The notes beneath the pieces are model-generated. The model was not told where the DNA came from and did not search any database. It was given only the letters and a program-made list of their open reading frames with translations. From positions 1-39,780 of IMG/VR virus record IMGVR_UViG_3300011013_000031: a stretch of DNA of 39,780 bases; one strand, written 5' to 3'. Every line of letters starts with the position of its first letter. Position 1 is the first letter of the stretch. Of this stretch, positions 13,473-39,780 are shown piece after piece. A program made the translations under genes and the position numbers. Origin of the DNA: a virus.

Positions 13473-13478
13473 GCAGGC

Positions 13479-17710: not shown

Positions 17711-19275
17711 TGACACAGGCACTGCCAGAACCAAGGGTTTTTCCAGATCTACAACGATCTCCAATCTTTGTATTTAAAGGATTGCGAGATATGCTGTCCT
17801 ATCCACAGACAGAGTTAACACAAGAACACTCCGTGGATATGAACAATATAGATCTGTCTGAGCAAAGGCTAGCAAGGCGTAGGAGTGGGTATGAGAAGTT
17901 TAACACATCCCAAATAAGCGGTACGCCTCCGATAACTGGTTTCATACAGCACGAAATAGGGACGCATGGGCTTAGAAACGTCTATACGTCATCTACGAAG
18001 ATATATGCGGATACTGGAAGCACGAGAACGGATCTTACTGGCTCTGTAACGCTTAATGCTGGAGCAGAGGCAAGGCATAGGTTCGCCTATTTAGATAGCA
18101 CGTTAATTGCCGTAAATGGAACAAACAACATTTGGACATGGAATGGTAATACAAGTTCCACAGCGGCTGCATTAACGACAGCGCCAGTAGCTATAGCCAC
18201 ATGCGAAGACATTATAGTTCATAAGAACGTTCTTCTCTACGTGGCTCCGACCATATCATCTACAAAGTATCCGACAAGGCTTTACTGGTGCGATGTTGAT
18301 ACGGATACCTTTGGCGTAGACATCGATAGAGTCCTAGATAACAATAGATTTGAGGTAGATGCTGGGGGAACGGATATAATAGGGGCGGCTTCGGCGTGGG
18401 ACAAAGTATTTATCTTCAAAAAAGATGGGGTTTATGTGGGCGAAGTAGTGTACCATGTAGGTGCGCTGGAATACACTCCATTAAGCACAATGAAGGGATT
18501 TTCGCCAGTATCCAAAAGCAGTATCATAGTTCGTCCAGAGTTCATCTTTGGAATAGCGACAGAAGGTGCGTTCATAATAACGCCCGATATGCAGTATAAG
18601 GTTGTGACGCGAGACATAAACTTTCAGTCGTTGTTCAACTTGGGAAGACTACAATACTCTGTATCTACGGTTAGAGAGAAAGACCACCAAGTTCGCGTTC
18701 TCATGTCCTCGGATACCAATTCCACAGGACATGACAGGGTTCTTGTTTGGGATTGGGAGACACAGGAAATACAGATAGAGTCCTACACGGCAAAGCTGAA
18801 CCATGTAGGAACTATGTTTGTGAGTAATACTGAGTTCGACTTTCTTGGCAGCTATGATACAGGATACGTTTACAAGGGAAATGTCGGAACACAGGATGAT
18901 GGAACGGATTTTTCATATACATATGAGACTGCGCCCAATGACCTTGGTCTTCCCGGCATCGCCAAAATTATCAAAACTGTTATCTTATACTATAAGAATA
19001 CAGGAAAGCTGACAACGCTAACGTGTCAGGTAAAAAGGGACCAAGGCGTTAGAGGGACCAAGTCTAAATCATTCTCGTTTGGTACAGACTATGTGTATAA
19101 TGGAAGCTACACATATAACTCTGGAATAAAGTATCCAGATGATTCGGCAAATAAAGTAACTTTTGCCATAAATAGAACAGTAGAAAACCTGTCTCTGGTT
19201 ATAACAGGTTCAAATGCCGCAGAATTAATAGGATATCAAGTAGAATATTCCATTAGTGGTCAAGGGGTATTATAA
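17710..19275 (+). CDS. Putative tail nozzle (beta-propeller) protein
   Basis: The 521-aa product starts inside the adaptor stop codon (TAATG). It is almost all beta: repeated short blades such as RHRFAYLDSTLIAVNGTNNI, HKNVLLYVAPTISSTKYPTR and ASAWDKVFIFKKDGVYVGEV, then QVRVLMSSDTNS and HDRVLVWDWETQEIQIES. The N-terminal VDMNNIDLSEQRLARRRSGY resembles the region that docks nozzle proteins on the adaptor in T7- and P22-like tails. The order adaptor, nozzle, fibre is standard for podoviruses. I am fairly sure of a structural tail role and less sure of the exact fold. Confidence 0.65.
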   Translation: MTQALPEPRVFPDLQRSPIFVFKGLRDMLSYPQTELTQEHSVDMNNIDLSEQRLARRRSGYEKFNTSQISGTPPITGFIQHEIGTHGLRNVYTSSTKIYADTGSTRTDLTGSVTLNAGAEARHRFAYLDSTLIAVNGTNNIWTWNGNTSSTAAALTTAPVAIATCEDIIVHKNVLLYVAPTISSTKYPTRLYWCDVDTDTFGVDIDRVLDNNRFEVDAGGTDIIGAASAWDKVFIFKKDGVYVGEVVYHVGALEYTPLSTMKGFSPVSKSSIIVRPEFIFGIATEGAFIITPDMQYKVVTRDINFQSLFNLGRLQYSVSTVREKDHQVRVLMSSDTNSTGHDRVLVWDWETQEIQIESYTAKLNHVGTMFVSNTEFDFLGSYDTGYVYKGNVGTQDDGTDFSYTYETAPNDLGLPGIAKIIKTVILYYKNTGKLTTLTCQVKRDQGVRGTKSKSFSFGTDYVYNGSYTYNSGIKYPDDSANKVTFAINRTVENLSLVITGSNAAELIGYQVEYSISGQGVL

Positions 19276-22200
19276 TGGCAACGATTACAGTTCCTTCTGA
19301 TCCAACCCTACCCGTAGCTGGTGCTGAGATAAAAGCAGCACCGCTAAAGGATTGGATTACCAATATTCGCACATTCATAGAAGCCACTAATATAGATGAG
19401 GCGAATGTAGATACCGCTGGTGCTGACGGCATCGTAGGGAAATCTATAAATCAAACAATTACTGGCCTAAAAACCTTTAGCAATACAGCAGCGGCAGCGG
19501 GAGGATTGCGCGAGGTAGCCAAGTTTGAGATCAACCCTGCGTCTGGAACTGCGGCAGCTAATGACGGTTTGCGCATGACCTTTACCGCAGATGATGCGGG
19601 TGGTAATGCTACCGCAGTAGGTTACGTAGATCTTAAATTGACCGATGCCTCTACCACCTCGGAAGATTCTGAGTGGCGATTTTCCACAATCTCAAATGCC
19701 TCTTCCGTAACCCCATTAGTGGTTAATGCAACGTCAATCACTATGACCACTGGCACCGTGGCTATTGGCACCAATGCTACTATAGGTGGTGGACTGACGG
19801 TTACGGGAACAGGAATTTTTGGAGCATTAACAGTAGGATCTGCTGCCATTAGCGAGGCAGAGCTAGAGATGCTGGATGGGTTGACGGGAGGAACAGTCAC
19901 TGCATCGAAGGCTGTTGTCGTAGATGGCAATAAAGACATCGCGTCCTTTAGGAATGTGACGCTTACTGGAGAATTAGATGCAGCAACGCTGGATATTTCT
20001 GGCGATGCGGATATAGATGGAACCTTAGAGGCAGATGCTATTACTCTTGGCGGCACAGCATTGGGATCTCTATACTCCCCAATTGCTGGCAGCAGCTCAA
20101 TCGTTACGGTTGGCACGGTGGGAACTGGAACGTGGCAAGGTAGCGTTATAGCCTCTGCATACCTTGATGCAGATACTGCACATCTAAGTGGTTCGCAAAC
20201 ATTTACTGGCGATAAGACCTTTACAGGAACGATAACCGTAGGGGTAGATGGAACTGGGAAAGATGTCACGTTTTTTGGAGACACCTCTGGATCAAAAGTT
20301 GTTTGGGACGAATCTGCTGATGATTTAATCTTTACTAATTCGGGAATAGCCGTAGGCAGTGATGCTACGGGCGATATATACTACAGGAATAGCTCAGGTT
20401 ACCTTACTCGTTTGGGCGTGGGAGACAATGGCGAAGTCCTAACGACTAATGGAACTATACCAAGTTGGGGTTCAGCGGGTGGGGCTGGAGACTTCAGTGG
20501 GCCGGGATCAGCAACAGACAATGCAGTGGTTCGGTTTAATGGAACGGGCGGGAAAACGGGTCAAAATAGTGGGGTCACAATTGACGATAGCAATAACGCT
20601 ACGGGCTTTGCCAACCTTACGCTTTCTGGCGAACTGGATGCCGCCACAGGTGATTTCAGCGGCGATGTCGATGTAGATGGAACCTTGGAAGCAGATGCTA
20701 TAACCCTTGGTGGAACTGCTTTGGGATCGCTGTATTCTCCCATTGCTGGCAGTAGTAGCATTGCTACAGTAGGAACAGTTGGAACTGGAACGTGGGAAGG
20801 CACTGCGGTAGCCTTGGCCTATGGTGGAACAGGTCTTGTCGGCGCGACGGATGGCAAGATAGTAATAGCGGATGGCAGCGGTGCGCCCGTTTTATTGGAT
20901 GTGGGTTCGTCTACTGCCATCACCGTACTTGGCACCGTAGCAACTGGCACATGGCAAGGCACTGCGGTAGCATCTGCCTACCTTGACTCAGATACCGCTC
21001 ACCTCTCAACCACACAGACATTTACTGGTGACAAGACCTTTACCGGCACCCTCACGGTTGGCGCGGATGACACGGGTAAGGATGTAAAGTTTTTTGGAGC
21101 ATCTGCTGGTGCCTATATGGAGTGGGACGAAAGCGCAGACCAACTGAGAATAGTTGGTGCTTCCGCAGATGCCACTACCAGCACTGGCAAACTATTATTG
21201 GCCACATCTCTTAATGATATCAATGCAAATGATGTCATAGGCAAGATAGAATTTCAAGCACCACTTGAGGTTGGTGCTGATGCTATATCGGTATCAGCTT
21301 CTATTAAGGCCGTAGCACAATCCACGTTCACGGCAAGCTCTAATGCGACTGATATCATATTCTCTACAGGACATTCCGAGACAGCAACAGAGAAGTTTAG
21401 AATTACCAGTCAGGGTGAGTTGGGTATAGGCGGCACAAATTATGGGTCAGACGGACAAGTTTTAACTTCTGGTGGTGCTGGTGCTGCCCCTGCATGGGAA
21501 AATGCAGCCTCGTCAGGTCACACGATTCAAGAGGAAGGGTCTAGTCTTACAGCAAGGGCTAACTTGAATTTCGTTGGTGCTGGCGTAACAGCCACCGATG
21601 ATAGTGGCAATAATGCTACAAAAGTTACGGTGACTCCTACGGGTGCGTCCTTGCCCGTTACGCGCTCCGATGGATCTACGAGCGATCCCATTGCCCTGAC
21701 CTCTGCGGCTCTTGGAGAGAGCTTGGTATCCGACACCACTCCGCAACTTGGCGGCAACCTCGACGTTAATGGGCAGTCTATTGTCTCTGATGGCAGCAAC
21801 GAGAATATCCCGATTACGCCGCATGGCACGGGCAGTGTAGTCATCTCCAAGGCCGACATCAATGCGGGTGCAATAGACAATACTACAATTGGCGCAACAA
21901 CTGCGTCTACCATAGCAGGGACCACACTGTCGGCAACGGGCAATGTCAGTTTCGATGGCGGGTCATTTGTCTTCAACGAGTCTGGCGCGGACAAGGACTT
22001 TCGCATCGAAGGCGATAGCGATCAGAATCTGTTTTTTGCTGATGCAAGCACGGATCGGATCGGCATCGGCACGGATTCGCCCAATACGGACCTCGAAATT
22101 CGAGGGCCAGCCGCAGATTTTGGCTATCTCACATTATCGACTGCTGAGACAACGATTGTCAATACCGATCCATTGGGCCGAATTGATTTCAGGGCACCAC

Positions 22201-23324
22201 TTGAGGGTAGCGGATCTAACGCTGTGTTGCCAACGGCGAGGATTACAGCGGTGGCAACCGAGACATTTGATGCCACCCATAATCAGACTGATCTGAGTTT
22301 TCAGCTTGCAAATGATGGCGGGGTAACTGAGAAGTTTCGTATCACCAGTACGGGCAATGTCGGCATCGGCACGGCATCGCCTGCCGCGAATCTGCACGTT
22401 GAGACGGATAAGGTGACGGGCGATTATATCGGCTATTTTCACAACTCGCGCACAAGTGATGGCGGCGAGCAATATGGGGTGAAGATTGAAGCGGGATTCA
22501 ACCTTTACGATGCTGTTTTCCAAGTAGCCGATGGCAACAACAATAAGATGTTTCAGATCGATGGTGGCGGCACCACCGAGGCGTGTGCCAATGGAGGCAA
22601 GTTCTTTATTGCTGACACCGCCAACGCCAACATGACGCAGGGCATTACGATCAATCAAGGAACAAATGCCAACGAGGTTCTCGCATTTTGCTCCAGCGAT
22701 GTCGCGCATGGGCTGAGTCTGGCCGCAACGGATACATTTTGCTCCTTCATTAAATCCACGGATGCTGGGGGCGGGGTGGTGATGCAAGGTCTTACCGACG
22801 CCAATCATCCGAATAGTTATCAAACAATGGGATTCCATGTATATCAAGGGGTAGCCGCAGATACTACAAAATCCATTTCGGGTTATGGAATGGCAAGATT
22901 CCGTTGTGCATGTAGTAATTCTACCGTTACTACCAATGGGAATATGCTCTCTATAGACAATAATGGTAACACAAAGTTTATCATTGACGGAGAGGGTGAT
23001 GTCTTCTACGATGGCACAACTAATGCGGGTAACTGGGACGACCACGATGATGTTGGGCTACTTAGCGCGTTCCGAAATCTAACTACAAGCAACAAGGCAC
23101 AGGATGTATTCGGAGAGTTTGTGAGCGAGAACGCGAAAGTGCTACACGACACGGGCGTCATCACGATGAACGACGATGGACATCACTTCGTATCCACCAA
23201 GGGCTTGAATGCGCTAATCATTGATACGATCCGTCAGGAAGGTCAGAGGTGGCGCAAGGTCGTAGGAGAATATCAAGATAAAATCGCTGCGTTGGAATCG
23301 CGGCTACTTAGGCTGGAGGCTTAA
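19275..23324 (+). CDS. Large tail fibre protein with repeated shaft modules
   Basis: This 1349-aa protein begins inside the nozzle stop codon (TAATG). The N-terminus (MATITVPSDPTLPVAGAEIK) probably joins the tail. The shaft is Gly/Ala/Thr/Ser/Asp-rich and contains phage-fibre repeats: GELDAAT units, LGGTALGSLYSPIAGSSS, QTFTGDKTFTG and RIGIGTDSP or VGIGTASP units of the kind often seen before receptor-binding tips. The last 35 residues form a heptad-like helix (WRKVVGEYQDKIAALESRLL) that may trimerise the fibre. The C-terminal region resembles the end of fibres with an intramolecular chaperone, but I do not see the catalytic Ser/Lys pattern of the S74 peptidase family, so self-cleavage is not claimed. 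Codon composition changes abruptly along the gene. Confidence 0.85.
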   Translation: MATITVPSDPTLPVAGAEIKAAPLKDWITNIRTFIEATNIDEANVDTAGADGIVGKSINQTITGLKTFSNTAAAAGGLREVAKFEINPASGTAAANDGLRMTFTADDAGGNATAVGYVDLKLTDASTTSEDSEWRFSTISNASSVTPLVVNATSITMTTGTVAIGTNATIGGGLTVTGTGIFGALTVGSAAISEAELEMLDGLTGGTVTASKAVVVDGNKDIASFRNVTLTGELDAATLDISGDADIDGTLEADAITLGGTALGSLYSPIAGSSSIVTVGTVGTGTWQGSVIASAYLDADTAHLSGSQTFTGDKTFTGTITVGVDGTGKDVTFFGDTSGSKVVWDESADDLIFTNSGIAVGSDATGDIYYRNSSGYLTRLGVGDNGEVLTTNGTIPSWGSAGGAGDFSGPGSATDNAVVRFNGTGGKTGQNSGVTIDDSNNATGFANLTLSGELDAATGDFSGDVDVDGTLEADAITLGGTALGSLYSPIAGSSSIATVGTVGTGTWEGTAVALAYGGTGLVGATDGKIVIADGSGAPVLLDVGSSTAITVLGTVATGTWQGTAVASAYLDSDTAHLSTTQTFTGDKTFTGTLTVGADDTGKDVKFFGASAGAYMEWDESADQLRIVGASADATTSTGKLLLATSLNDINANDVIGKIEFQAPLEVGADAISVSASIKAVAQSTFTASSNATDIIFSTGHSETATEKFRITSQGELGIGGTNYGSDGQVLTSGGAGAAPAWENAASSGHTIQEEGSSLTARANLNFVGAGVTATDDSGNNATKVTVTPTGASLPVTRSDGSTSDPIALTSAALGESLVSDTTPQLGGNLDVNGQSIVSDGSNENIPITPHGTGSVVISKADINAGAIDNTTIGATTASTIAGTTLSATGNVSFDGGSFVFNESGADKDFRIEGDSDQNLFFADASTDRIGIGTDSPNTDLEIRGPAADFGYLTLSTAETTIVNTDPLGRIDFRAPLEGSGSNAVLPTARITAVATETFDATHNQTDLSFQLANDGGVTEKFRITSTGNVGIGTASPAANLHVETDKVTGDYIGYFHNSRTSDGGEQYGVKIEAGFNLYDAVFQVADGNNNKMFQIDGGGTTEACANGGKFFIADTANANMTQGITINQGTNANEVLAFCSSDVAHGLSLAATDTFCSFIKSTDAGGGVVMQGLTDANHPNSYQTMGFHVYQGVAADTTKSISGYGMARFRCACSNSTVTTNGNMLSIDNNGNTKFIIDGEGDVFYDGTTNAGNWDDHDDVGLLSAFRNLTTSNKAQDVFGEFVSENAKVLHDTGVITMNDDGHHFVSTKGLNALIIDTIRQEGQRWRKVVGEYQDKIAALESRLLRLEA
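19953..21145 (+). repeat. Internal duplication in the large fibre gene
   Basis: Two long diverged copies of one module lie in frame: copy 1 at about 19953-20325 and copy 2 at about 20613-21145. Both run from TLTGELDAAT or TLSGELDAAT, through ADAITLGGTALGSLYSPIAG and the QTFTGDKTFTG segment, to WDESAD. Copy 2 holds an extra insertion of about 50 codons that itself repeats the GTWxG unit. A further pair, EKFRITSQGELGIG and EKFRITSTGNVGIG, lies downstream. Confidence 0.7.
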
Positions 23325-26161: not shown

Positions 26162-29100
26162 ATGGCACTGTTTGACGAGGGTGCGGCAGATGCGGCAGCA
26201 GAAGAAGCAGCACGGAAAAAACGCGAAAAAGAGGAAAAAGAGCGGAAAGCTGCTGCCGCTGCCGCTAATGGGAAGGGCAACGGTGCTAACGCCGTAACGT
26301 CCGCATCTTTTGGATTAGACGGTGATGACCCAGAAGCAGCGCCAGATGTGCCTCCAATAACCCAAACCGATTCCACTTCAGATGACTCTAATGCCGTAGC
26401 AGCGACTAATACATTTTTCAGCAATTTCGCTCAAAGCAATCCTGAAGAAGCCTACAAGATGTACGAAGGGATTTTGAGCGGTGACGCATCTGATGAGGTG
26501 AAGAATGCCTACCGAGAGCAAGCTCCACCAGAGTTTGCAAATCGATATAATACGGGATTATCGCAAGCAGCCTCATCCGACTTGGCAGCCTCTTACGCAG
26601 ACAGGGCCGCACCCACGACCGTTGATAGGTATGGACACCTACCCGAAGAAGACCAAAACGCGATAAGTGCAGCGGAAACGTATTGGCTTCCTCGACTAGA
26701 GAATGACCCAGAAAAAGCTTACGAAAACTATAAAATAACAATGGGTCGCACAGATGTCTCTGATAGCGTAAAGCAGTTCTGGAGAGACAATGCCCCAGCC
26801 GAGTTTGCCACTCGCCTCAATAATGAAAAGTCACAGGGCGCGCAAACAGATTTGGCCGCTGGCTACGAGGGAAGGATATTAGACAAGTATTTCTCAGAGA
26901 CCGAGACACAGCCTCTTTATTTTGAAAATGAAATAAGGGAGGCAATGAAAGACCCCTCGTCTGATGAAGCATATCGCCTATGGCAAATACAGTATGACAG
27001 GCCCGGTATTTCCGACGAAGAGAGGCAAAGGTATGCCGATCTATTCCCAGCATTTGCATCGGAGTATGCCCGAGAGGGAAGTATTCCATTAAGCGATAAA
27101 GAAGATTGGGAGGGAACAACGACTGGTAATGTTTTTAGTGGACTTCTAGAAAGCAACCCCGAAGAAGCATATCTGCTATACAAAAAAATATTAAGAAGCG
27201 ATGCGTCTGACGAGGTGAAGAACTCTTATAGAGATCAAGCCCCTGCGGATTTTGCTGATCGATTTGTCAGAGATAGTGGGAGAGTATCTCGTCCCGGCGA
27301 GGATACTTTTGAGTTTGAGAATACAAATCCTTTTGTAGAAGCAGAAAATTTTGATGACGTATTTAAAACAGGAGATGCCATATCGGAAGGGTCGGATAGG
27401 GTTGCCGAAGACCCTTTCCTTTTTACAAGGGTTAGAGATGGAATAGGGCAAGGAAATTTAAACCAGTTTAACAGGCAGTTTATAGAGCGTAATGTAAATT
27501 TTAGTCCTGAACAAAAAGCTCAATTGTTGGAGTTGTGGGATAGCAAGGATGCCGAGGCACAAGCAAACGTAGATGCTGCCAAAGGCCCAACTACAGAGGA
27601 TACTTACAAAAATTTATTGCAGCAAATAAGATCTGGATACCTGACAGATCGCACTGCCATAATGAGGGCTAAACTGCCCTTGCAGATGCAAGACGATCTT
27701 TTAAGTGCATTAACTCAGAAAACAACAAAGGGTGCTGACTTCGATGTCGATACCTATGACGAGTTTTTTAAAACAGCAGATGCCGTAAATCAAGGATCTG
27801 ACGTATTAACATTTGACCCACATCATTATGGCGATGTGCATAGCACTATACAAGGCGGTGATCTAGATAAGTTTAATAGAGAGTTTATTTCAAGAGATGT
27901 AAATCTTACAGAAGAGCAGAGAGAAGCTCTCCTCTCTCTATACGACCTTAAGGTTGAGGAGCGTCGAGGGTGGCAAGAAGATAAAACTCCAGAGGAAATA
28001 TACTCTGATTTTGAATCTCGCATTGCCAGTGGTGAGGCAATTGACAGGACAGAGATAATTGACTCTCTATTATCCGACGAGCAGAAAACAGCCCTTTTGG
28101 CTTCTTCTTCGGGAAGACAGAGGGAGATTAGGAGCAATCAAGCGTATCAATCTTTTGAGAAACGATTCTCCTTTGATCCCAATAAGCCAACCGAGCATGA
28201 CATTCTCACTAATGGTGATCTAACTCAAGAGCAGAAAGACAATTTAATAGCTCGCTATTTTCCAGTAGAGGAAGTTCCAGATGAAGTGGGAGAAGTAGAA
28301 GGAGAAGATGAACTTGCTCCGAGAGATAGGTACGGCCGAAAGTTAAGGGCTACGAGAGACTTCCTTAATAGCGGTGGCGATCCCGCTATGGTCAATTGGA
28401 ATGAATTAGAATCATTGGCTAATGCTGCTGGCGTTGGCGATCTGTTTAATAAACAAACTATCATTGAAAGTGGTGCGGCTGAGTATGACAAAGGTCAGCG
28501 TCCCGCAAGACAGCAGAAAGCCTACCAAGGTTTAATAGGTAGGTTTATGAGCGGTGCTAATGTTAGTGAGTATGAGATAGCTACAGCTGATTTATCAGAT
28601 CAACAACGTAGTGATTTGCAGTCTCGTTTTGCGGAGCAAGAGAGAAGGCGGGAAGACCAAAGAAGGAGGGAGGAACAGGATAGGGAGAAGGAGGAACAGG
28701 ATAGGCTACGTAGGGAAGAGTACGAAAGGACGATAGAGGAGAAGAGGCTAGAAGCAGAGCGTCTTAGGATAGAAGCCGAGCAGTCCAAAACAGCCAATCC
28801 TACGATTGACAATGAGGATAAAGCCGAGCGGTCTTCTGCTTATGATAATTTATCGAGTCAAATATACACTGCCCTTGATGAGGGCAATGCCAATACATCA
28901 CAGCTTTTATACCAAATAGAGACATCTGGTTTAGCTGATGATGAAAAAGCTCGTCTTAAGGCCATGCTCCCGAAGCCTGCTCCTTCCTTGGATCAGCAAG
29001 CTGAAGAACAACTGGAGCAAGAAGCAGAGACAAAGAGAGAAGAAGAATATGTAGCCATAGATGAAGGCAAGACGATCATAGAGGCAGATGCTCTGATAGA

Positions 29101-32100
29101 CATGATTGATGATATCATGTCTAACATGGCGGGTGTATTGTCGGAAGAAGACATCGTAAAGTTGGTAAGCGCACGACTACAGGGTCAAAACTTGTTTGCC
29201 GATTCTGCCACCTTGCTTAATACGGTGGCAGATGTAAATAAGCTGTACTACAGGCATTTTGAAGGAACTAGGACCAGACCTCTTACCTTTGTAGAAAGAA
29301 AGGACATGGAAGCAAAGGAGCGGTCTGATTCCGTAGTAACTGCGGCTGAATTGGATGCGTCTAAGACGAAAGAGGATCTATTTGCGAAGTTTGGTATTTC
29401 GTATGAGATGCAGTCTAATCCAGAAGAGGCATATTTTAAGGCACTAAGATTGGGTAACGCTTCGCCATCCGAAGCCTATAGAATATTCAAATATGCTGGT
29501 GGAATGGGTGCTCCTCCTGTAGGGCAGAATCCCAATCTAACTCCAGAGGGCAAGGAGGAAGACGATGATTCTATTTCCTTGTTTACCATTACAGAAGATC
29601 ATGGTGGGTATGGACACCCCTTCTATGCAGATGATGTATACAATCTCAAGGCGAAGCCGGGAGAGAGTGAAGACGAGTTTTGGGACAGGGTGCAGAATGC
29701 AGAGTGGTTGACAGAGCTTAAAGATCCAGATACGTCTGCCTCATATACGAAGTTGTCACCTCTCGAAAGTGATGCCATAGTAGATAAGATGATCACCACA
29801 CTTGGTCAAAATGGAGCAGACAGCGTAACCTTAAACAATGCGCTGGATGAATTAGTTAGATTTCAAAATAAAGACGATTTTACCAAAAACGATTTGCGAG
29901 CACAGTTTGAAGATGCTCTTCTTGATGCCCTTAATTCTATGGGCGGGGAAGACTTGGATGAGCAGAAGAGACTGTTGAGAGCTTCGGCTAAAGAAGACTA
30001 TCAAGATGCAATAGAAGAGGCGAACAGGTATTTCCTTGTGAACGGCTTATCGGGAAGTGGCCAAGAGCAGCGTAGATTTGAAGAGCTATCCAGTAATCAC
30101 CTAAAGGGATTGCGTGAGATAGACATGGCCATTAACGAAAAGAGGAATGAGTATGCCGCCAAGCAGGTAACCATGCTTACGGACTCGCTTGCTCAGCTAG
30201 CAAATATAGATGTTAGCGAAAACAAGCTTGGATTAGAAGCAGATGACCTTGAAGAACGTGGTCGGCAGTTCGATGCCTCACTTAAACAAAGCAAGTATAC
30301 GACAGAGCAAGAGCTTAATATACGGAACAAAGAACTGAATATTGATGAAACAAAGTTCTATGAAACAGTTCGTCAGTTTAATAAAGAGCTTGGCAATAGG
30401 ATAAATGAGTTCGCAGCACAGTTTGGTTTAAATGAGCTAGAGACTGCCGCAAGTATCCGTAAGGTCAATACGGACATCGTGAATCAAACGAGAGAGTTGT
30501 CTAATCAAATAGCCATGTCATGGGCCGATATTACTGGCATAGCTGGAGATATGACGGGAACACTAAATCTCAATGACTTGGGTATTCCAGCAGCAGAGTT
30601 CACGGAACAGGAAAGAAATCTTCCACCAGAGTATCTTGCCCAAACAAAAATAGGCAAGGCTATTGCCGATTCGTTTTCGGCCATGACAGGTCAGCAAATA
30701 ACTCTTGATCAGTTGAAGGCCATTGCAGATGGTGAGGATCTCATGGTAGAGGGTATGCCCACCCTAGAGTCTCGTCAGATTGCTACGGCCATTACCATGC
30801 AGAACTTGGACCGCATGAATAAGTATGCAGCCATAGCAGATGAAAACGACTTGGAGCTGGAGCGATTTGAAACAGCTAAAGATCAAGCAGATCGTCAGTG
30901 GTATCTCACCATTGGAGATGTGTCGGAAACATTTGGCATGAACAATGATGCTTTCAGAGATGCCAAGTATCAATACGATAAAATGTTTGACCCCCTTAGT
31001 GCTGATCCAGATAAGAATGGAACCAATAATCCAGATCTTATTCATGTAGCTACGGAGAAGGCTAGAGAGATATATCTCAGTTCATCTGGCGTAGCGTTTG
31101 GTGATGAAAGATATGATGAGATTAACCAAGAGTTTCAAGAAAATTGGGGTCAGGCAAATGATGTCTTTGACAACACCCACGCCAATCAGCTTAAGGACAT
31201 AGCTCGTCAAAACAAATTTGAAGAAGATAAGTTTGAGCGGGCTAATAGGCAGGCAACTTTGCAAGAAGAGAAGTATGAGGAAGTGTGGGGTGCCTTGATG
31301 GGGGCAAGGGACGAAGATCCAACTTCTATAAATCTCTATGATAGCAATAGGACTCTTTGGAACGAGACTCTAGATTATATAAATCAATATACCGATACAG
31401 GAACGAGTGTAACTCCAGAGTATTACGATGTTCATAAAAGGCTGGCGGGTGAACCTCTTTCAGAGGGCATGGCTGAGTTAATGGCCAATTACGATCCCAC
31501 CACTGCCACACAGGAACAGTACAATCAGCTTGTTGCCAAGTGGAGAGAGGCAAATCCACCGGGCGATACAGAAACGGGGAATGACCATAGAAACCGTGCA
31601 GCTTCTGCCATTAGAGGATATATAGCAAGTAAAAACTCGCGGGAGATTGTTGAACAGGTTGAGCGTGGCGATGTTCGTATTATGGACACTGATAAAGTTT
31701 CGTCCATTGTAGCTTCCCTTATGGAAAATCCTCCACCGGGATTGTTTGAAAATATCAACAGCAACTATGGCATCTTGAATGATGAAGCGAAGAGAGAGGT
31801 GCTAACTAGCATTGTTAATTCTACGGTGCAAAGTCGGGAGATGGAGCAGTATCTTGATCCAGAGACAGGCGAGGCAATAATCTCTGCCAGCGACCTTGGA
31901 CTAGACTGGTATGATGCGAGTGGTGATTTAAAAGATGACACCTCTGGTTGGTTTATCACAACCGCGGGACACCAATTTGAAGATAAGGCTACTGAGAGAT
32001 TTATAGAAGCTTCTCAAAGAGGTGGAGATTTAGAAGGTGTTTCCGTTATAGACCTTCTAAACAATAAAGAATATGAAAATTATGTAGATGATAAAGACGA

Positions 32101-32521
32101 TTTCCGAATGACGCAGCATGGGAAGAAGATGTTCAGAGAGTTGGCGGGTCAGTTTAATGAGACTTTTGGTAGGAATCCTACGGTCTTAGAGGCATTTATG
32201 TTCAAAGAATCTGGCGGCCAATTAAACCTTATGTCGGGCGATCCATCTGTTGGCTTTACTACGAGCATGAACATACGATTGATTCCAGAAAACTGGATTG
32301 ATAACTATAATGAACCGGGACAGTTGGAAGGTATCTTTGCCCTTCTCAATGGCGGCAATGTAACGCCAGAACGTGCGGTAGCTCGCACAAGTGGATGGGC
32401 CAAGTTTGGCAATATAGCGGGTAACATTGTTGCCTCTGGAGTTGGCGCATTCGCTACTGCTTATGGGGGGAACCTTGGGAAACCACAACCACAACCACAA
32501 CAACAACAACCACCCGGGTAG
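26162..32521 (+). CDS. Giant 2119-aa internal virion (ejection) protein
   Basis: TGGAGG lies 8 nt before the ATG. The N-terminus is an Ala/Lys/Glu helix (AARKKREKEEKERKAAAAAA). Residues 84-370 hold four diverged repeats (SNPEEAYKMYEGILSGDASD, and relatives at 174, 256 and 324) ending in AP-EFA or AP-DFA. Residues about 397-645 hold two copies of another unit (FKTGDAISEGSD, NQFNRQFIERNVNFSPEQ). A charged coiled coil follows at about 817-878 (RRREDQRRREEQDREKEEQD), then long helical sequence. The C-terminus has a Gly/Ala hydrophobic stretch (NIAGNIVASGVGAFATAYGG) and a Pro/Gln tail. It is the first of three huge genes placed after the tail fibres, where ejection proteins lie in T7-like phages. 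A weak FKESGGQ motif near residue 2016 is discussed under findings. Confidence 0.75.
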   Translation: MALFDEGAADAAAEEAARKKREKEEKERKAAAAAANGKGNGANAVTSASFGLDGDDPEAAPDVPPITQTDSTSDDSNAVAATNTFFSNFAQSNPEEAYKMYEGILSGDASDEVKNAYREQAPPEFANRYNTGLSQAASSDLAASYADRAAPTTVDRYGHLPEEDQNAISAAETYWLPRLENDPEKAYENYKITMGRTDVSDSVKQFWRDNAPAEFATRLNNEKSQGAQTDLAAGYEGRILDKYFSETETQPLYFENEIREAMKDPSSDEAYRLWQIQYDRPGISDEERQRYADLFPAFASEYAREGSIPLSDKEDWEGTTTGNVFSGLLESNPEEAYLLYKKILRSDASDEVKNSYRDQAPADFADRFVRDSGRVSRPGEDTFEFENTNPFVEAENFDDVFKTGDAISEGSDRVAEDPFLFTRVRDGIGQGNLNQFNRQFIERNVNFSPEQKAQLLELWDSKDAEAQANVDAAKGPTTEDTYKNLLQQIRSGYLTDRTAIMRAKLPLQMQDDLLSALTQKTTKGADFDVDTYDEFFKTADAVNQGSDVLTFDPHHYGDVHSTIQGGDLDKFNREFISRDVNLTEEQREALLSLYDLKVEERRGWQEDKTPEEIYSDFESRIASGEAIDRTEIIDSLLSDEQKTALLASSSGRQREIRSNQAYQSFEKRFSFDPNKPTEHDILTNGDLTQEQKDNLIARYFPVEEVPDEVGEVEGEDELAPRDRYGRKLRATRDFLNSGGDPAMVNWNELESLANAAGVGDLFNKQTIIESGAAEYDKGQRPARQQKAYQGLIGRFMSGANVSEYEIATADLSDQQRSDLQSRFAEQERRREDQRRREEQDREKEEQDRLRREEYERTIEEKRLEAERLRIEAEQSKTANPTIDNEDKAERSSAYDNLSSQIYTALDEGNANTSQLLYQIETSGLADDEKARLKAMLPKPAPSLDQQAEEQLEQEAETKREEEYVAIDEGKTIIEADALIDMIDDIMSNMAGVLSEEDIVKLVSARLQGQNLFADSATLLNTVADVNKLYYRHFEGTRTRPLTFVERKDMEAKERSDSVVTAAELDASKTKEDLFAKFGISYEMQSNPEEAYFKALRLGNASPSEAYRIFKYAGGMGAPPVGQNPNLTPEGKEEDDDSISLFTITEDHGGYGHPFYADDVYNLKAKPGESEDEFWDRVQNAEWLTELKDPDTSASYTKLSPLESDAIVDKMITTLGQNGADSVTLNNALDELVRFQNKDDFTKNDLRAQFEDALLDALNSMGGEDLDEQKRLLRASAKEDYQDAIEEANRYFLVNGLSGSGQEQRRFEELSSNHLKGLREIDMAINEKRNEYAAKQVTMLTDSLAQLANIDVSENKLGLEADDLEERGRQFDASLKQSKYTTEQELNIRNKELNIDETKFYETVRQFNKELGNRINEFAAQFGLNELETAASIRKVNTDIVNQTRELSNQIAMSWADITGIAGDMTGTLNLNDLGIPAAEFTEQERNLPPEYLAQTKIGKAIADSFSAMTGQQITLDQLKAIADGEDLMVEGMPTLESRQIATAITMQNLDRMNKYAAIADENDLELERFETAKDQADRQWYLTIGDVSETFGMNNDAFRDAKYQYDKMFDPLSADPDKNGTNNPDLIHVATEKAREIYLSSSGVAFGDERYDEINQEFQENWGQANDVFDNTHANQLKDIARQNKFEEDKFERANRQATLQEEKYEEVWGALMGARDEDPTSINLYDSNRTLWNETLDYINQYTDTGTSVTPEYYDVHKRLAGEPLSEGMAELMANYDPTTATQEQYNQLVAKWREANPPGDTETGNDHRNRAASAIRGYIASKNSREIVEQVERGDVRIMDTDKVSSIVASLMENPPPGLFENINSNYGILNDEAKREVLTSIVNSTVQSREMEQYLDPETGEAIISASDLGLDWYDASGDLKDDTSGWFITTAGHQFEDKATERFIEASQRGGDLEGVSVIDLLNNKEYENYVDDKDDFRMTQHGKKMFRELAGQFNETFGRNPTVLEAFMFKESGGQLNLMSGDPSVGFTTSMNIRLIPENWIDNYNEPGQLEGIFALLNGGNVTPERAVARTSGWAKFGNIAGNIVASGVGAFATAYGGNLGKPQPQPQQQQPPG
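26411..27271 (+). repeat. Four protein repeats of about 48 aa in the giant ejection protein
   Basis: Residues 84-131, 174-222, 256-304 and 324-370 share the pattern (N/D)PEEAY-YK, a short loop with SDASDEVK-like sequence, then Y-(D/E)QAP-FA-R. Repeats 1 and 4 are closest (SNPEEAYKMYEG and SNPEEAYLLYKK; SGDASDEVKNAYREQAP and RSDASDEVKNSYRDQAP). They are helical, like tetratricopeptide-type units, though I would not name them so without a search. Confidence 0.6.
32483..32516 (+). repeat. Short tandem repeat at the end of the giant gene
   Basis: Three CCACAA units (32483-32500) are followed by CAA repeats and CCACCC just before the stop codon. They encode the Pro/Gln tail. Such tracts can change length by slippage, here without affecting the rest of the protein except by frame. 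Confidence 0.6.
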
Positions 32522-32553: not shown

Positions 32554-34395
32554 ATGTCCTTCTTAAGTAAATTAGGTGATTTCGCTGGAGGCTTTGCCGA
32601 AGGTCTAGGCGAAGCACTGCCCGGTGCCATTGAAAAAGGCATGGACAGGCGCATAGATCTAATGGATCAGCAACGTGCGTGGCAAAGACAGGATGCTCTC
32701 AGGGCAGAGGATCGTGAATTTAGCATGGATCAAGCTGCTTATAACGAGGCTGTATCCGCTGGCGATTTAAGCTACCTGTCTGGCATAGATCCAGAAGGCC
32801 TACTTGGTGAAAGAGCCGAGCACGCAATAGCCAACATAGTAGCAAATGCTGGAGCACAGATCACAAATGCAGGGCGAACATCGGATGTATTGGTTAATGC
32901 TACTGCGTTACAGTTTAATGATCGAAGCTCTAGGGACTTATACTCAAAAGGCACTACATACGATGATTTTTCCGATCAAAGCTTACAATTAAATAAGCAG
33001 TTAAATGAGTTAATCAACCTTAGAGACAACCCGAATCTTGCACAAGCATTTGATGAAGCTCAGATAGAAGCATTAAATATAAATATAGCCAACATTGAAG
33101 CATCAATAGACACAGTAGATAAAAAGCAAGGGCTATATGGAAAGTTTCTACAGGGCAAAGATGAGAACCTAAACTCTTTTAATTCGCTCTTGGGCATGGG
33201 AGATCTAACAAGTGCTCAAAATACTCTTGAAGCCCTAATAGATGGCGACTATATATCGCCTATGATGGCAAAGCGTTTTTCCGATAGCATCATAGTACAA
33301 AGAATGGAACGAGCTATTGTAGAGGGAGACTTTGATAAGCAAAGCACAATCCTTAATGAAAGTCCACCCAACTTAAGGCAGATCTTGGCAGAAAAAATGA
33401 ATGATGCCGAGAGGGCATTGGAAGGAAAAAATGTGGAAGCAAGGGTAACCATGTCCAATTGGGGAATGGCTGCTGATTTGGAAAAAGAAGTATACGAGAA
33501 TCCCAACCTAACCGATCCGCAAAAAGATCAGATAATAAACAATCTCCGCACCAAACAGCAAGCGATGGCGCAGGGTGCCGCTTCGAGAGTTAGTGCGGCA
33601 ATGAAAGAACTTCGTCAAGGAATAATAAAAAACTACGTTGGTGGGCAAACATTCGATGCGAGGACTCTCAACTCAATGGTTGTAAATGCTCTTAGGCAGA
33701 GTCCGCTGTCTTATGGTGTACAACCTTGGGAGGTAGCACGGTTTGAGTTGCAGAACGACTTGTCTACTTCAACGAACACCAATATGCCACTGGAGAAAGC
33801 CCTTGTTGCCCACTACGCACCACTAGTTGTTATGGGGGTAATGAGTCAGGATGAGTTGATGTCGAAGATTGACACCTCACAAGCCCTTACTCAGAGGGAA
33901 AAAAATATAGCTCTTGAACAAGCAAGTGGTATAACGCCCAGTGCCAACGCAGACCCACAGACGAAGATGGCGGCGCAGCAAATAAATCAATTTACATTGG
34001 GGGGAATATCTAACATTATAAGTGATTTTGACGAAGAAGTTATCAAAAGAGATTTTATGGCGGCAAGGGGTAGGCCCGATCCAGATGCTATAAACAGAGT
34101 GAAGGTCAATTATACAAGATCAGTACAGAAAGATATAGAGAATCGGGTATTAACTAGAGAGCAAGGGGAGGAGATTCTTGCGAGGATAGAGGATCTTATC
34201 CTTGCACTGACTTCTACATTCGGTCAAGATGATGTCGGTCCACCTCTTCCAGAGGGATACGTTACGCGTAAGCAGGCACAACAAAAGGGCGGTGGTAGGA
34301 TGTCGAGGGCTATACCGGGAGAAGAGGGTAGAACTCAGAGGCGAGAGCCGACTCAGCGGCAAAGAGCGATGGGCTTCGTAGGAGCAGGCGCATGA
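32554..34395 (+). CDS. 613-aa internal virion (ejection) protein
   Basis: AGAAAGG lies 9 nt before the ATG. The N-terminus is a Gly-rich amphipathic segment (FLSKLGDFAGGFAEGLGEAL) followed by a basic, Gln-rich helix (GMDRRIDLMDQQRAWQRQDA), a start that I associate with internal virion and ejection proteins. The rest is mostly helical and lacks cysteines in most of its length. The C-terminal 45 residues are basic and disordered (RMSRAIPGEEGRTQRREPTQ). Its stop overlaps the next start (ATGA). Middle position among three large genes corresponds to gp15-like proteins in T7 by order only; no sequence likeness is claimed. Confidence 0.7.
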   Translation: MSFLSKLGDFAGGFAEGLGEALPGAIEKGMDRRIDLMDQQRAWQRQDALRAEDREFSMDQAAYNEAVSAGDLSYLSGIDPEGLLGERAEHAIANIVANAGAQITNAGRTSDVLVNATALQFNDRSSRDLYSKGTTYDDFSDQSLQLNKQLNELINLRDNPNLAQAFDEAQIEALNINIANIEASIDTVDKKQGLYGKFLQGKDENLNSFNSLLGMGDLTSAQNTLEALIDGDYISPMMAKRFSDSIIVQRMERAIVEGDFDKQSTILNESPPNLRQILAEKMNDAERALEGKNVEARVTMSNWGMAADLEKEVYENPNLTDPQKDQIINNLRTKQQAMAQGAASRVSAAMKELRQGIIKNYVGGQTFDARTLNSMVVNALRQSPLSYGVQPWEVARFELQNDLSTSTNTNMPLEKALVAHYAPLVVMGVMSQDELMSKIDTSQALTQREKNIALEQASGITPSANADPQTKMAAQQINQFTLGGISNIISDFDEEVIKRDFMAARGRPDPDAINRVKVNYTRSVQKDIENRVLTREQGEEILARIEDLILALTSTFGQDDVGPPLPEGYVTRKQAQQKGGGRMSRAIPGEEGRTQRREPTQRQRAMGFVGAGA

Positions 34396-37300
34396 GTATA
34401 TTTGGAGCGTTTTCCAGTAGCGGGAATTACAAGCATTATTATCCCGAAGATGTTAATTTTGACGATTACATGCTTGGGGATGCAGCCAATCTTTTACACC
34501 CCGATGGTCAAGCATCTTTTGAATCTGCTTATGTGCCGGGAGACTATAGAGTTGTAAGAGATCCTAGTCACTCGACTAGAAGCAAGCAGAACTCTGCACT
34601 GAAGGGCGCTATTACGACCATAGATAGGGGTATGCGGCAGTTGGATGAGGGTGGCACTCTTACCCAACAGGGCCGAGCACTTGGTCAGTTGGAGCCGGGG
34701 GAAACCTACCTACAAGAACTATACGATGAGATAGATTTAGACTCTAAGATCAATAAGACGGGCATACTCCAAGAGGGAATAGATCTGATACAGGGAACGA
34801 TGTATGGGGTCTCTGGTGGGATATTAGAGTTGATGCGGACGGGTGAGATTGATGACGGGTTTAAGCAGTTTCTTTCCGAGATACGGCATTCGTGGGACGA
34901 TGATTATACCCCCGATCCAGATTCATGGCTCAGTAGGCCCGTATACCGTGCAGAGTGGGGGCAGATCCTTCGCTCAAACGATGGCATCATTGGCAAAAAA
35001 CTTTTGGATGCCATAGATACCAATCCCCTTCTTGCGTTCATGGATGCCAAGTCCATCGATGACCTAACAGATATATCGATAACGGACCACGTTAAGGATC
35101 TTGGTGAGCTTTGGAATGTGGTATCTGATAACAATTATCGTCAGTCCGAAGTAGAGCGCATCCGAAGAGAGCAGGGGGTTAGGAATGTCTCTCTGACCGA
35201 GGCTGAGAATAATGCGATGTTTTGGTTAGGGCTGGGATTGGATGTTGCCCTTGATCCATTGACATACACAGGCATTGGATTCTTAGGGAAGGCGGGCAAG
35301 CTCATTACGGGCAAAAAGGCCATTCTCAGAGGACTAGAGAGTGGTGAAGATGTAGCTAAACGAGCGCAAGTAGCTTACAACAGGCGGGTATATGAAGATC
35401 CTCAGAGTGATGTTGCCATAAGGCGAGCCAATAAGAAAGAGGAACTTGAGGCTAAGATAGGGGTAACGGATGAAGCTACGGGCAAGCCCTTCTTAGAAGA
35501 GGATGCGGCAAAGGGTCTTGAGGAATTTGACGAAGCAGAAAAACTAGCAGAGCAAGAGCTTCTTACGCCACAAAGAACGACCTTGGGTAAGGTCAGTGAT
35601 GCGGTACCCATCGATATGTTTTCGCTGCGTGATGAGGGGTACTTCGGAAAGGGTGGCGCTGTTGCTACTGGCATAGATAACTTCACTAATCTGGCCATGA
35701 GCACCCTGCATCGAATCCAAGCGATACCGAAGGTTGGGCACCTATTAGCACTGGACAATGCTTTCGTTACAAACAATGTAGTCAAGCGACTTCGCAATAA
35801 AGAAACTGCTAAACGATTTGCCAAGTTCATACAAGAAAATGCTACAGATATAACAGGTGCATCGTCAGATGACATTGCGAAGGATGAGCTACTGGAGCAT
35901 CTAACAGGTGATGTAGATCAATTAGCTGAGAGCATAACGCAAAAATCAGAACAGTATCTAAAGCTTGTTAAGGATGCGTCTATAGATAGACAGTCTGAAA
36001 CACAGGCTATTAAAAATGGAATGCTGATGCTGTCTAAGCGTTATGGCTTAGATGCTCGTTACGCTATGAGTCTGTTTGCAGCGAAGCCAGATATTGCAAG
36101 GCGGCTGATTGACGAAGGTGATTATGCTGACGATATCAAAAAACAATTGCATGAGGTTCTCAATGTCGGTAAGTCCTTGATCGAAGAGATCACACTAAAG
36201 GATCGAAGGCACGGACTACTAGATGAGACTCAGCTTAGAACCGATTACGTCCCAAGTCGCGCTCCCTTATCTCGTTCTGGCCAACGCACAATGGAGGCGT
36301 TTCTTAAGTCTAACGTAGACTCCGATGAGGCACAGGCGATCTTAAATCGGATTGAACAGAAGCAATCGAATCAATCGTATCAAGTAGCAATGGAGGGGGA
36401 TGTAAAAGCCACGTTCCAAAACCGTGCAGTTTTCCAAGATCTATACGGTAAGTTGCTTGCGCTCAATCCTTCTGAGATGGACTTTGCAATGCTTTATGGC
36501 AATAGAGCATTTGAGTCCTTGCGCCTAAGGAATACGAAACGATTTCAAGATCATATTTTAAGTGATCGATTGCTGACTGTTCCAGTTGATGAGGCTATTG
36601 CAAAAGATCCTACACATAAGCTGCATAAAAAGTTTAAGGCAAATGGGTTTGACTTCTATTCCCCTGCGGGTGGATGGAAGGATGAGGGTGCCGTCTTTTA
36701 TGCCATGCCCAAAGATATGTCGAATGCCCTTAAGACCACCAATACCTTGATGGAAGAAGCGGGTAGTGGTACTAAGAATATGGAGAGGCTTAAAGAGCTT
36801 GGCCAAGTATGGAAGACCGGGACTGCTCTTTGGCGGCAATGGGCATTGGGCACTATGGGGTATGTATCTCGTAACGTACAGTCTAATATATTCACCAACT
36901 ATGTAGCAGGGGTCACCTCTCCGCATAGATATTTAGAGGCAGCACTAATTCAGTGGGGTGGCACTGAGCAGATGCCTCGCGGAATAAAGGAGTATGTTGA
37001 GCTTAAGGTGGGTGGGCCTAAGGCTATACAGAATTACAAGTTCAAGCTTAGAGATGGACGCGTATTAAGCCTCCAAGATATGCGTGCTGAGATGGATAAG
37101 AATGGGCTGTTTGCCGACACCTTCAGCACAAATGAAATGGTCGAGTTGTCGGGGATTGAGAGTGCGACCTTCGGGATCTATAACAAAGGTCGCACGATGC
37201 CGACAGGCGTTATCTCTGCTGGTATTAAAGGTATGCCATCGTGGGGAGTTACGGAGGAACGTGTTAATAATGCAACTCGGCACATTCAAGATATGTACCG

Positions 37301-39780
37301 TGATGCTGGCAATACGGAAGTTAGTGCTGAAGAAGCTCGTGCCGTTGCAGAAGTGTACGATGGCATGGCACGACAGTGGGCATGGTATAATAATTCAGTA
37401 CCTTCGGCGTGGTGGGATAAGGTTACTATTAAAGGTTTTTCTGACTACGATCAAGTTAAAACAAAGTTTGTAGAAGACACTCTTCTTCAAGCAGACCCAA
37501 CCGCTGCGGCGATTGATAAGGGATTCGATCCTTGGTATGTAGGCAATCAAGCTGAAGCTCTTCCCGCATTGCGAAGCCTTATTGCTCGTAAGGTTGAAAC
37601 GAACTCCAATCTAAAGTCCAAGGAAAACATCTGGCGAAAGAATGATATGGGTGATTTGGTTCTCACCTTTGAAGAACTTCAAAAGTCTTTTGCCAGTAAG
37701 ATTATAAAAAAGAAAGATCCAGATGCTGCCCGTGTTAAGAAAGAGATGGGCAAGCTTAATCTGGATAGCACAAGAAATACATTTATTGGTGTAGAGGATT
37801 GGTTAAGCCTTAATGCCAAGGAGAATCCCACGGGAGAGATCACTAAGTCTGACTTCGTAAGTGCTCTTAACAGGGGATTGTTCCGCATGGATGCCGTTAC
37901 TCAGCGCAGGGGATTGACTCCCGATGTTGAGTATCCCGCGGCTATGGGGCAATTAACGCACTATAGGACACCAAGGGAAGCTTACGAGGCACAAACAGGG
38001 CCGCCCGATGCAGATTTTCTTGCATCTACAATCAATCAAGAGCGTAGACTTGGAGATTTTTACAGGGCAGAGGATGTGGATTACGCAAAAGAGCAATGGG
38101 AAACTGGTAATCCATATCAAGATGCACTAAGTGAAGTGCATGAAATAGAAACTGGGGATGGGCCAATGGGTCCAACAGGATTCGTTGACCCGATGTGGAA
38201 ATTCAAGACAATGCAGCTACCCATTGCATCAGAAGCAAAGCTTGAAGAACTTGCCGCAATGAGAGGACGTAGTGTTGGTGAGGCAGATGCGTATACCAAG
38301 GCAGAGGAACAGCTCTTGGCAGACCGATCCAACTACAGGGTGGGGTTTATAACCGCAACGGATGTTATTCCACGCAAGGAGTGGACTGCGATTACTGGCG
38401 TTGAGAGTGGTCGATATTTGCCGGGGGAATGGGAGGATGAAGCGGAAGGAGTAATGCGGTCTACAGGGTTGCCAATCGGCCCACTGGACATGGTAGTAGA
38501 TTGGCGAACGACAAAGAGAGAGGGGGTGGTTGGCCCAAGGGGCCAACATGAAATGGCATTCCCTCAATACCGCGACACCCCCGAAGGTAGGGAGTTGTCA
38601 TTAGCACAAGATGCACAAATTGCACACTATCGACTATCTGATTATGTAGATGAAAATGACAATAAGATCTTGGTCATAAATGAATTACAATCAGACTTTT
38701 TCGACTCTCGGCGTGGTGGCGTTCCTTTTATAAGAACCGATAGAGAAGACATAGAGTATTATGACAATATCTTAGCGATATATGATAGTGATAATGTGGA
38801 GCCAGCGACTATACAAAGACTAACTGACGAGGCGAAGTTGCCGTACTTAGACGGTAAAACGGAAGATCGCCATAGGCTGGTGCAGGAGTTTATTGACAGT
38901 GAGTACAATGAGGGTCCAACAAAACAAGTCGGCGGGAGAGGATTTGTGCCAGACGATGAGGCATTGAGAGAAGTAAGAACTCTTATGAATCAAGACGAGT
39001 TCTCCATTGCGCAATCTATTCGGTGGGGGTTGCCAGATACTCAAGTTGGCAAAGAGTCTCTCGCTGTAATGAATAAAGAATTTAAAGATCTGTTTCCGAT
39101 AAATAAAACCGATTGGCAAGCCCCCGCTATGAAGCTTCTCATGCAAGAAGCGGCAAGGGGCGGGTATTCAAAAGTTATTTGGGGTGGAGACTTTGACGTT
39201 ATAGCCAAGGCAGAGGGATGGGATGAAGCGCAACACGTAGGAATAGATGACTGGCATGATGCAGCAGCAGACAATCCTACAATGCGGCCAAAGCTAGAGG
39301 AGGTAGCGCGAAATTATTACGATGAGAATAAAAAAGGTAGTCTTGCTTGGACTGCAAATAGAGTTCTAAAAGATGTAGGGATTAAAGACGGGGTTAAGAA
39401 TTACAAGCACCCCACTGGCAATTATAAATCTATTGATATTACCGAAGACTTAGCCAGTAAAGCTCTTAATGGTAGTGACTTTACCCTGTATCAGAAGGAC
39501 GCTAATACTGATAAAGTTAAGGGCTTGGTGAGTTTCCTTGATGACGGGCGTAGGTTAGTCGCTTCGTTCCGAGAAGGCGATGTCTCTACGATGGTGCATG
39601 AGTTGGCGCACATAGCTCGTAGGTCTGAGATGATTGCGCCGGGAGATATGCAGGTCATTAACAACTGGATCTTTGGCATGGACACAGCCAAGGGCAAGTC
39701 GTTAATCAATAAGCGCATTGATGAGTATCGCAAAGAGTGGTTGGGTGATGAATCAGACATGGAGTGGTCTGATGAGGAAC
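34392..39780 (+). CDS. Giant polyvalent ejection protein with zincin protease motif, 3' end missing
   Basis: The frame opens with ATG overlapping the previous stop and stays open to the window end: 1796 codons, no stop. Near residues 270-300 is a hydrophobic stretch (NAMFWLGLGLDVALDPLTYT). Around 807-853 is QWALGTMGYVSRNVQSNIFT, like membrane-near segments of other large phage proteins. At 38676-38696 lies INELQSDFF (residues 1429-1437), which together with APAMKLLMQEAARGGYSKVI (from 1577) matches the EIQSDW-type domain of phage polyvalent proteins. At 1736-1740 the motif HELAH (39597-39611), preceded by SFLDDGRRLVASF and DVSTMV, marks a zincin metalloprotease; its third metal ligand would lie beyond the window. 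Such proteins, described by Aravind and colleagues, are thought to enter the host with the DNA and counter defences. Confidence 0.8.
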   Translation, partial: MSIFGAFSSSGNYKHYYPEDVNFDDYMLGDAANLLHPDGQASFESAYVPGDYRVVRDPSHSTRSKQNSALKGAITTIDRGMRQLDEGGTLTQQGRALGQLEPGETYLQELYDEIDLDSKINKTGILQEGIDLIQGTMYGVSGGILELMRTGEIDDGFKQFLSEIRHSWDDDYTPDPDSWLSRPVYRAEWGQILRSNDGIIGKKLLDAIDTNPLLAFMDAKSIDDLTDISITDHVKDLGELWNVVSDNNYRQSEVERIRREQGVRNVSLTEAENNAMFWLGLGLDVALDPLTYTGIGFLGKAGKLITGKKAILRGLESGEDVAKRAQVAYNRRVYEDPQSDVAIRRANKKEELEAKIGVTDEATGKPFLEEDAAKGLEEFDEAEKLAEQELLTPQRTTLGKVSDAVPIDMFSLRDEGYFGKGGAVATGIDNFTNLAMSTLHRIQAIPKVGHLLALDNAFVTNNVVKRLRNKETAKRFAKFIQENATDITGASSDDIAKDELLEHLTGDVDQLAESITQKSEQYLKLVKDASIDRQSETQAIKNGMLMLSKRYGLDARYAMSLFAAKPDIARRLIDEGDYADDIKKQLHEVLNVGKSLIEEITLKDRRHGLLDETQLRTDYVPSRAPLSRSGQRTMEAFLKSNVDSDEAQAILNRIEQKQSNQSYQVAMEGDVKATFQNRAVFQDLYGKLLALNPSEMDFAMLYGNRAFESLRLRNTKRFQDHILSDRLLTVPVDEAIAKDPTHKLHKKFKANGFDFYSPAGGWKDEGAVFYAMPKDMSNALKTTNTLMEEAGSGTKNMERLKELGQVWKTGTALWRQWALGTMGYVSRNVQSNIFTNYVAGVTSPHRYLEAALIQWGGTEQMPRGIKEYVELKVGGPKAIQNYKFKLRDGRVLSLQDMRAEMDKNGLFADTFSTNEMVELSGIESATFGIYNKGRTMPTGVISAGIKGMPSWGVTEERVNNATRHIQDMYRDAGNTEVSAEEARAVAEVYDGMARQWAWYNNSVPSAWWDKVTIKGFSDYDQVKTKFVEDTLLQADPTAAAIDKGFDPWYVGNQAEALPALRSLIARKVETNSNLKSKENIWRKNDMGDLVLTFEELQKSFASKIIKKKDPDAARVKKEMGKLNLDSTRNTFIGVEDWLSLNAKENPTGEITKSDFVSALNRGLFRMDAVTQRRGLTPDVEYPAAMGQLTHYRTPREAYEAQTGPPDADFLASTINQERRLGDFYRAEDVDYAKEQWETGNPYQDALSEVHEIETGDGPMGPTGFVDPMWKFKTMQLPIASEAKLEELAAMRGRSVGEADAYTKAEEQLLADRSNYRVGFITATDVIPRKEWTAITGVESGRYLPGEWEDEAEGVMRSTGLPIGPLDMVVDWRTTKREGVVGPRGQHEMAFPQYRDTPEGRELSLAQDAQIAHYRLSDYVDENDNKILVINELQSDFFDSRRGGVPFIRTDREDIEYYDNILAIYDSDNVEPATIQRLTDEAKLPYLDGKTEDRHRLVQEFIDSEYNEGPTKQVGGRGFVPDDEALREVRTLMNQDEFSIAQSIRWGLPDTQVGKESLAVMNKEFKDLFPINKTDWQAPAMKLLMQEAARGGYSKVIWGGDFDVIAKAEGWDEAQHVGIDDWHDAAADNPTMRPKLEEVARNYYDENKKGSLAWTANRVLKDVGIKDGVKNYKHPTGNYKSIDITEDLASKALNGSDFTLYQKDANTDKVKGLVSFLDDGRRLVASFREGDVSTMVHELAHIARRSEMIAPGDMQVINNWIFGMDTAKGKSLINKRIDEYRKEWLGDESDMEWSDEE

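Follow-up and report, generated by a model that had tools for sequence, protein, structure and literature searches.

Phage polyvalent proteins are multi-domain giants encoded among virion genes, and some contain a zincin-like MPTase domain in which an HEXXH motif is combined with a Glu on a second helix (Iyer et al. 2017, PMC5512222). Cis-processing by such domains was argued by the same authors; the virion RNA polymerase (vRNAP) of phage N4 contains a similar domain and enters the virion uncut (PMC5512222). According to the accessible part of PMC12633501, N4 vRNAP is one of three ejection proteins encoded in one operon, and its C-terminal domain, which contains the HExxH, binds to the polymerase and inhibits it; that part of the source mentions no protease activity. 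In the Bcep22-like podovirus JC1, gp69, a DarB-like protein of 4,515 aa, is present in virions by mass spectrometry (PMC9144972). Paenibacillus phage API480 is a podovirus by TEM, and of the 47 proteins in a preparation of its unpurified particles, gp16 ranks first in unique peptides (71, at 61% coverage); its mass is 128 kDa in the paper versus 184 kDa in the present record (PMC6937236).

The window analyzed here spans an entire viral IMG/VR record (39,780 bases) that has no end repeats. Three adjacent ORFs of 2119, 613, and at least 1796 aa, adding up to 4528 aa, lie at the end of its late genes (Table 1), and their order is conserved in relatives. Terminase, the major head protein, and tail families are found in the same strand order near the giant gene, and the source phage is presumably a podovirus. 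The preliminary description had put the set at more than 4,500 aa and its last gene at 1796 codons or more, and both values hold. The frame of the giant gene is open to the contig end, so the gene is 3′-incomplete; judged against a homologue of 2288 aa, an estimated 490 residues, the third zinc ligand among them, lie beyond the window. HELAH, framed by SFLDDGRRL and DVSTMV, sits where it had been placed, as does the start of INELQSDFF; the end of the latter needs correction from 38696, which closes INELQSD only, to 38702.

Table 1. Features of the window, with positions on the 39,780-base record
Feature	Position	Strand	Remarks
Portal gene	5514..7610		
497-aa ORF	7747..9237		Gly/Ala/Arg/Gln-rich; between portal and head genes; no PHROG match
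Small protein	9240..9653		N-terminal CxxC...CxxC, zinc-ribbon-like; between portal region and scaffold-like gene
Three consecutive ORFs	12630..15159		280, 261, and 327 aa; between head and tail genes
Fibre-like 1349-aa ORF	19275..23324		Repeated 'GTW.GT' and 'TFTGDKTFTGT' type segments; no PHROG match
2119-aa gene, first of set	26162..32521	+	54% identical homologue at same place in L002 contig
613-aa gene, second of set	32554..34395	+	Directly upstream of giant gene, 4-base overlap
Giant late gene, third of set	34392..39779	+	ATG start, 1796 codons, no stop before contig end
Carrier piece N	35220..35387	+	Residues 277-332, '..LDPLTYTGIGFLGK..'; profile iE 1.5e-18, own family inside profile
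Carrier piece MID	36801..37031	+	Residues 804-880, 'WKTGTALWRQWALGTMGYVSRNVQSN..'; profile iE 2.4e-23
Fast-evolving cargo region between MID and ELQSD domain	37869..38591	+	Residues ~1160-1400; 16-29% identity per 100 residues
EIQSD(W)-type domain (approximate boundaries)	38610..39221	+	'LLMQEAARGGYSKVIW' at 39135-39182
INELQSDFF motif	38676..38702	+	Residues 1429-1437
Zincin metallopeptidase domain, N-terminal half	39507..39683	+	Second helix and third ligand off contig
SFLDDGRRL	39531..39557	+	
DVSTMV	39579..39596	+	
HELAH	39597..39611	+	H1736, E1737, H1740

We read the gene, with a probability of about 0.72, as coding for a giant protein that a short-tailed phage ejects, with a conserved carrier bearing interchangeable cargo that includes a zincin, most likely a self-cleaving one. 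The carrier, consisting of N, MID, and C pieces, would be a late product that is packed into the virion alongside the two proteins encoded upstream and is ejected together with the DNA. Inserted between MID and the C piece, the cargo would comprise an uncharacterised region, an EIQSD-type domain, and a HExxH...E zincin. The zincin would cut the giant protein itself, in the head or after entry, and free the cargo from the C-terminal carrier piece. Cis-processing is our leading guess because the zincin directly precedes that piece. Against it stands the uncut N4 vRNAP (PMC5512222), and it counts against the reading as a whole that the window's third ligand and carrier C-terminus, both off the contig, are read from the homologue.

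Pfam, PHROGs, and NCBIfam return nothing meaningful for the window protein or the full homologue, the one exception being a weak hit of PHROGs to the carrier C piece. Neither protein has a Pfam enzyme domain, an RNA polymerase family in any of the three collections, or a Pfam LPD or other polyvalent domain over threshold. In this last respect the window protein differs from the polyvalent proteins of Iyer et al., with which it shares the multi-domain giant build, the place among virion genes, and the HEXXH motif. Sequence searches of the PDB give chance-level matches only, and tblastn of the window protein (P0001) against 50,697 phage records gives no match at 1e-5. No prophage or host relative was found in a genome scan, and no further contigs with the exact giant gene were found via the portal gene.

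The only close homologues are encoded on two near-identical IMG/VR contigs, with 53% identity over the first ~1,180 residues of the giant protein; the closest complete homologue has 2288 aa. The larger contig (51.9 kb, portal 86% identical to that of the window) keeps the 2119-613-giant gene order, with the 2119-aa homologue split across the contig ends. In L002 (IMGVR_UViG_3300009603_000019), a contig classed as having no end repeats, the 2119-aa homologue appears as pieces of 789 and 1304 aa at the two ends; the split makes it probable that this record is a near-complete genome with circular permutation. Portals 81-86% identical to the window's occur in several contigs (among L010-L029); despite such similarity, the nearest giant protein is 53% identical at best and far less so in the cargo. 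A second group of contigs has portals 39-41% identical to that of the window.

The last ~290 residues of the 2288-aa homologue match three phage records. Each match is a large protein ending a late module, two of the phages are recorded as podoviruses, and no zincin or EIQSD domain was found in these three proteins. An alignment built from them leads to at least 278 viral contigs with the C-terminal piece, of which 80 were kept. No Pfam family covers the piece. LPD38 (PF18857) is an unproven candidate for its identity: the Pfam profile gives no match in the homologue and 12 other carrier or related records, but is equally silent on the control genomes. The order N, MID, C is kept in all 54 proteins that hold the three pieces. 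N and MID are separated by 270 to 2222 residues. The MID-C gap is 33-147 aa in 76 of 79 carriers, and the exceptions are the window family (1180), L036 (975), and L106 (292). Carriers free of cargo start at 867 aa, and cargo between the pieces reaches ~2,000 residues. The MID region of the window protein also aligns by direct BLASTP (E 8e-15) with one such cargo-free carrier, L037 (979 aa), so the assignment of the window protein to the carriers does not depend on its missing C-terminus alone. The window family uses the unusual second cargo slot, from MID to C. The three-piece carrier seems not to have been named before; as it can be recognised by sequence, cargo can be read as whatever interrupts it.

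In the first set of 79 carriers, the zincin of the window type is found in two and the EIQSD domain in three others, and both are therefore optional cargo. SLT and ART-PolyVal domains, typical of injected proteins, form the cargo of other carriers. The same zincin occupies the MID-C slot in L036 and L136 and, as far as the truncated frame shows, in L123/L164. The gene preceding carrier L036 resembles the N-terminal 62 residues of the window's 613-aa protein; a relation of the latter to N4 gp51 was also tested, and no similarity was detected. The scarcity of the zincin bears on the idea that the protein is not ejected and acts late in the infected cell, for example as a prohead-maturation protease. 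Its gene does lie among late genes, and relatives have head genes close by. A domain held by two of 79 carriers is dispensable for assembly in this group, and the size of the protein and its place after the tail genes fit ejection proteins, which together make a late-acting enzyme very improbable.

Evidence on the virion role of the carrier comes from API480 gp16, a homologue in MID (iE 4e-6) and C (iE 8e-12). It is like the window family in these two pieces and unlike it in the others, as piece N, the zincin, and the EIQSD domain were not detected. JC1 gp69 resembles the window gene in being a giant protein that ends the late genes of a podovirus, and differs in its DarB-like antirestriction cargo. 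The preliminary description had called the window product an ejection protein, and indirect evidence favors this: a role in the virion and in ejection is likely from the late-gene position, the homology to API480 gp16, and a probable relation to N4 vRNAP.

That relation was analyzed by hhalign, with a carrier MID-C profile of 76 sequences and a profile of 11 Schitoviridae polymerase C-termini. The two align with E=1.9e-5 and a score of 48.2, versus at most 28.7 for 60 column-shuffled decoys, 19.2 for the reversed profile, and at most 30.8 for 154 natural segments. Single pieces give less, with E 0.23 for MID of the window family and 0.027 for C of P0002. In the reciprocal search, carrier proteins take the first nine ranks, several of them in register with MID or C, each with a weak E-value. 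The zincin profile reaches N4 vRNAP marginally (score 3.2, 0 of 200 shuffles). On this sequence evidence, the carrier MID-C region is probably, though not provably, related to the C-terminal ~330 residues of N4-type polymerases. N4 gp50, of the Schitoviridae gp52-gp51-gp50 operon, is like the window protein the giant last member of a three-gene ejection set and has an HExxH zincin-like domain; unlike the window protein, it has a T7-type RNA polymerase as its main cargo, and no EIQSD domain was found in it. We give even odds to a broader proposal, in which one undescribed carrier (MID and C, with N in most) would serve as the packing and ejection part of giant ejected proteins in many short-tailed phages, with N4 vRNAP among them. 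The cargo in its two slots would vary between RNA polymerase, zincin, EIQSD domain, lytic transglycosylase, ADP-ribosyltransferase, or none, and the window family would use the rare second slot. If the N4 polymerase does use the same carrier, a shared part would account for its C-terminal packing region, and the swapping of cargo could be tested directly.

At the zincin, BLAST with either query identifies a single annotated phage, Rhodobacteraceae phage LS06-2018-MD07 (OP947163.1), with E 0.07 for the window. An alignment seeded with the zincin of this phage led to further loci and to at least 112 viral contigs. The zincin profile consists of 74 non-redundant phage members; the window family and its close relatives were left out, and the LS06-2018-MD07 sequence, which helped to find the family, is itself outside the profile. 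Among the six-frame ORFs of the window, the giant ORF is the sole match (E=9.6e-14 over the N-terminal half of the domain, the remainder being off the contig), and the complete homologue gives E=2.2e-19. A match of this strength from a profile that excludes the window family is not due to chance, and the zincin-type HExxH domain of the giant ORF is confirmed at the level of sequence.

The structure model covers the zincin domain of the 2288-aa homologue, not that of the window; computed from an alignment of 76 sequences, it is confident (pLDDT 85.3, pTM 0.80). Three strands lead into the HELAH helix (model residues 46-50) and a later helix with E133, which matches the core order of three strands and two ligand helices described for these peptidases (PMC5512222). 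The third zinc ligand read from the homologue is E1861, the window's own copy lying beyond the contig end, and the window family has an insert of ~60 residues between the two zincin helices. A BFVD structure search with the model returns giant phage proteins as the best matches, one of them named 'Large polyvalent protein associated domain-containing', and a fold search against the PDB returns nothing above chance (Z below 3).

The 74 zincins were chosen for HExxH, which is therefore invariant among them; the downstream ExxA Glu, which was not selected for, is conserved in 99%. This conservation makes it unlikely that the protein plays a purely structural part in the virion, with an HExxH domain that no longer cuts and serves in folding or packing. 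In favor of such a fate is the inhibitory domain of N4 vRNAP, as described in the accessible part of PMC12633501. Yet the 74 relatives, diverse as they are, retain both the ExxA Glu and the HExxH, the latter in part through the choice of the set, whereas the neighbouring cargo is not conserved.

The EIQSD-domain profile, built from 12 other copies, is marginal for the giant ORF (E=0.001) and for the stretch alone (0.005); hhalign of the window domain to canonical copies gives 1.4e-9, in a chosen pair. The window copy of the EIQSD(W) motif has F in place of W. The domain lies 305 residues ahead of the zincin, and in 14 of 15 co-occurring pairs from other phages the order is likewise EIQSD then zincin, 201-520 residues apart. 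With both profiles matching and the spacing within this range, the pairing of the two domains that had been proposed for the window protein is upheld. Carriers L049, L093, and L098 have a canonical EIQSDWH together with a different HExxH type ('HEFGHIWD', 'HEYGHIWD' in L093 and L098), positioned ahead of the EIQSD domain and not behind it. On the L098 contig, a carrier-sized frame additionally contains an ART-PolyVal domain. In L090, the carrier has extra sequence beyond the C piece that contains 'HETLHH', and the contig shows a strong SLT transglycosylase match in a frame of roughly carrier size.

Conservation along the protein is uneven. Identity to the nearest relative, in steps of 100 residues, is 54-75% in residues 501-1000 and 67-75% in 701-1000, drops to 16-30% in residues 1101-1700, and climbs to 46% at the zincin (residues 1701-1796). 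From MID to the ELQSD domain, the cargo has no recognised domain and no Pfam match. Such a profile may also suit a zincin that acts as an effector, cutting host proteins of defence, transcription, or the envelope after ejection. We rate this main alternative as the less probable one, but as a serious contender. The cargo is fast-evolving compared with the carrier core and exchangeable between carriers, as host-directed parts would be, and other carriers have an ART-PolyVal domain. No host target is known, and the zincin core is better conserved than the remaining cargo, as would be expected more of an enzyme with a fixed target in cis.

Phage-ejected proteins often carry a zincin, and the window protein fits this known theme. 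The preliminary description regarded a three-gene podovirus ejection set with such a protein as new; N4 (PMC5512222 and the accessible part of PMC12633501), LS06-2018-MD07, and JC1 precede it. The giant 'methyltransferase' of LS06-2018-MD07 has the same type of zincin (E 2e-30), and its gene lies third in a podovirus-like late module, preceded by genes for an 'internal virion protein' and a product of 632 aa. It resembles the window protein in zincin type and third-gene place and differs in cargo; neither carrier pieces nor an EIQSD domain were detected in the ~3,050 residues covered. What the analysis usefully adds is a carrier recognisable by sequence, with its C piece in at least 278 viral contigs.

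Elsewhere in the window, the three consecutive ORFs between the head and tail genes resemble glycosyltransferases by eye (e.g. 'LFMWDADMRFDY'), and counterparts of 280, 267, and 315 aa occur at the same place in L121.
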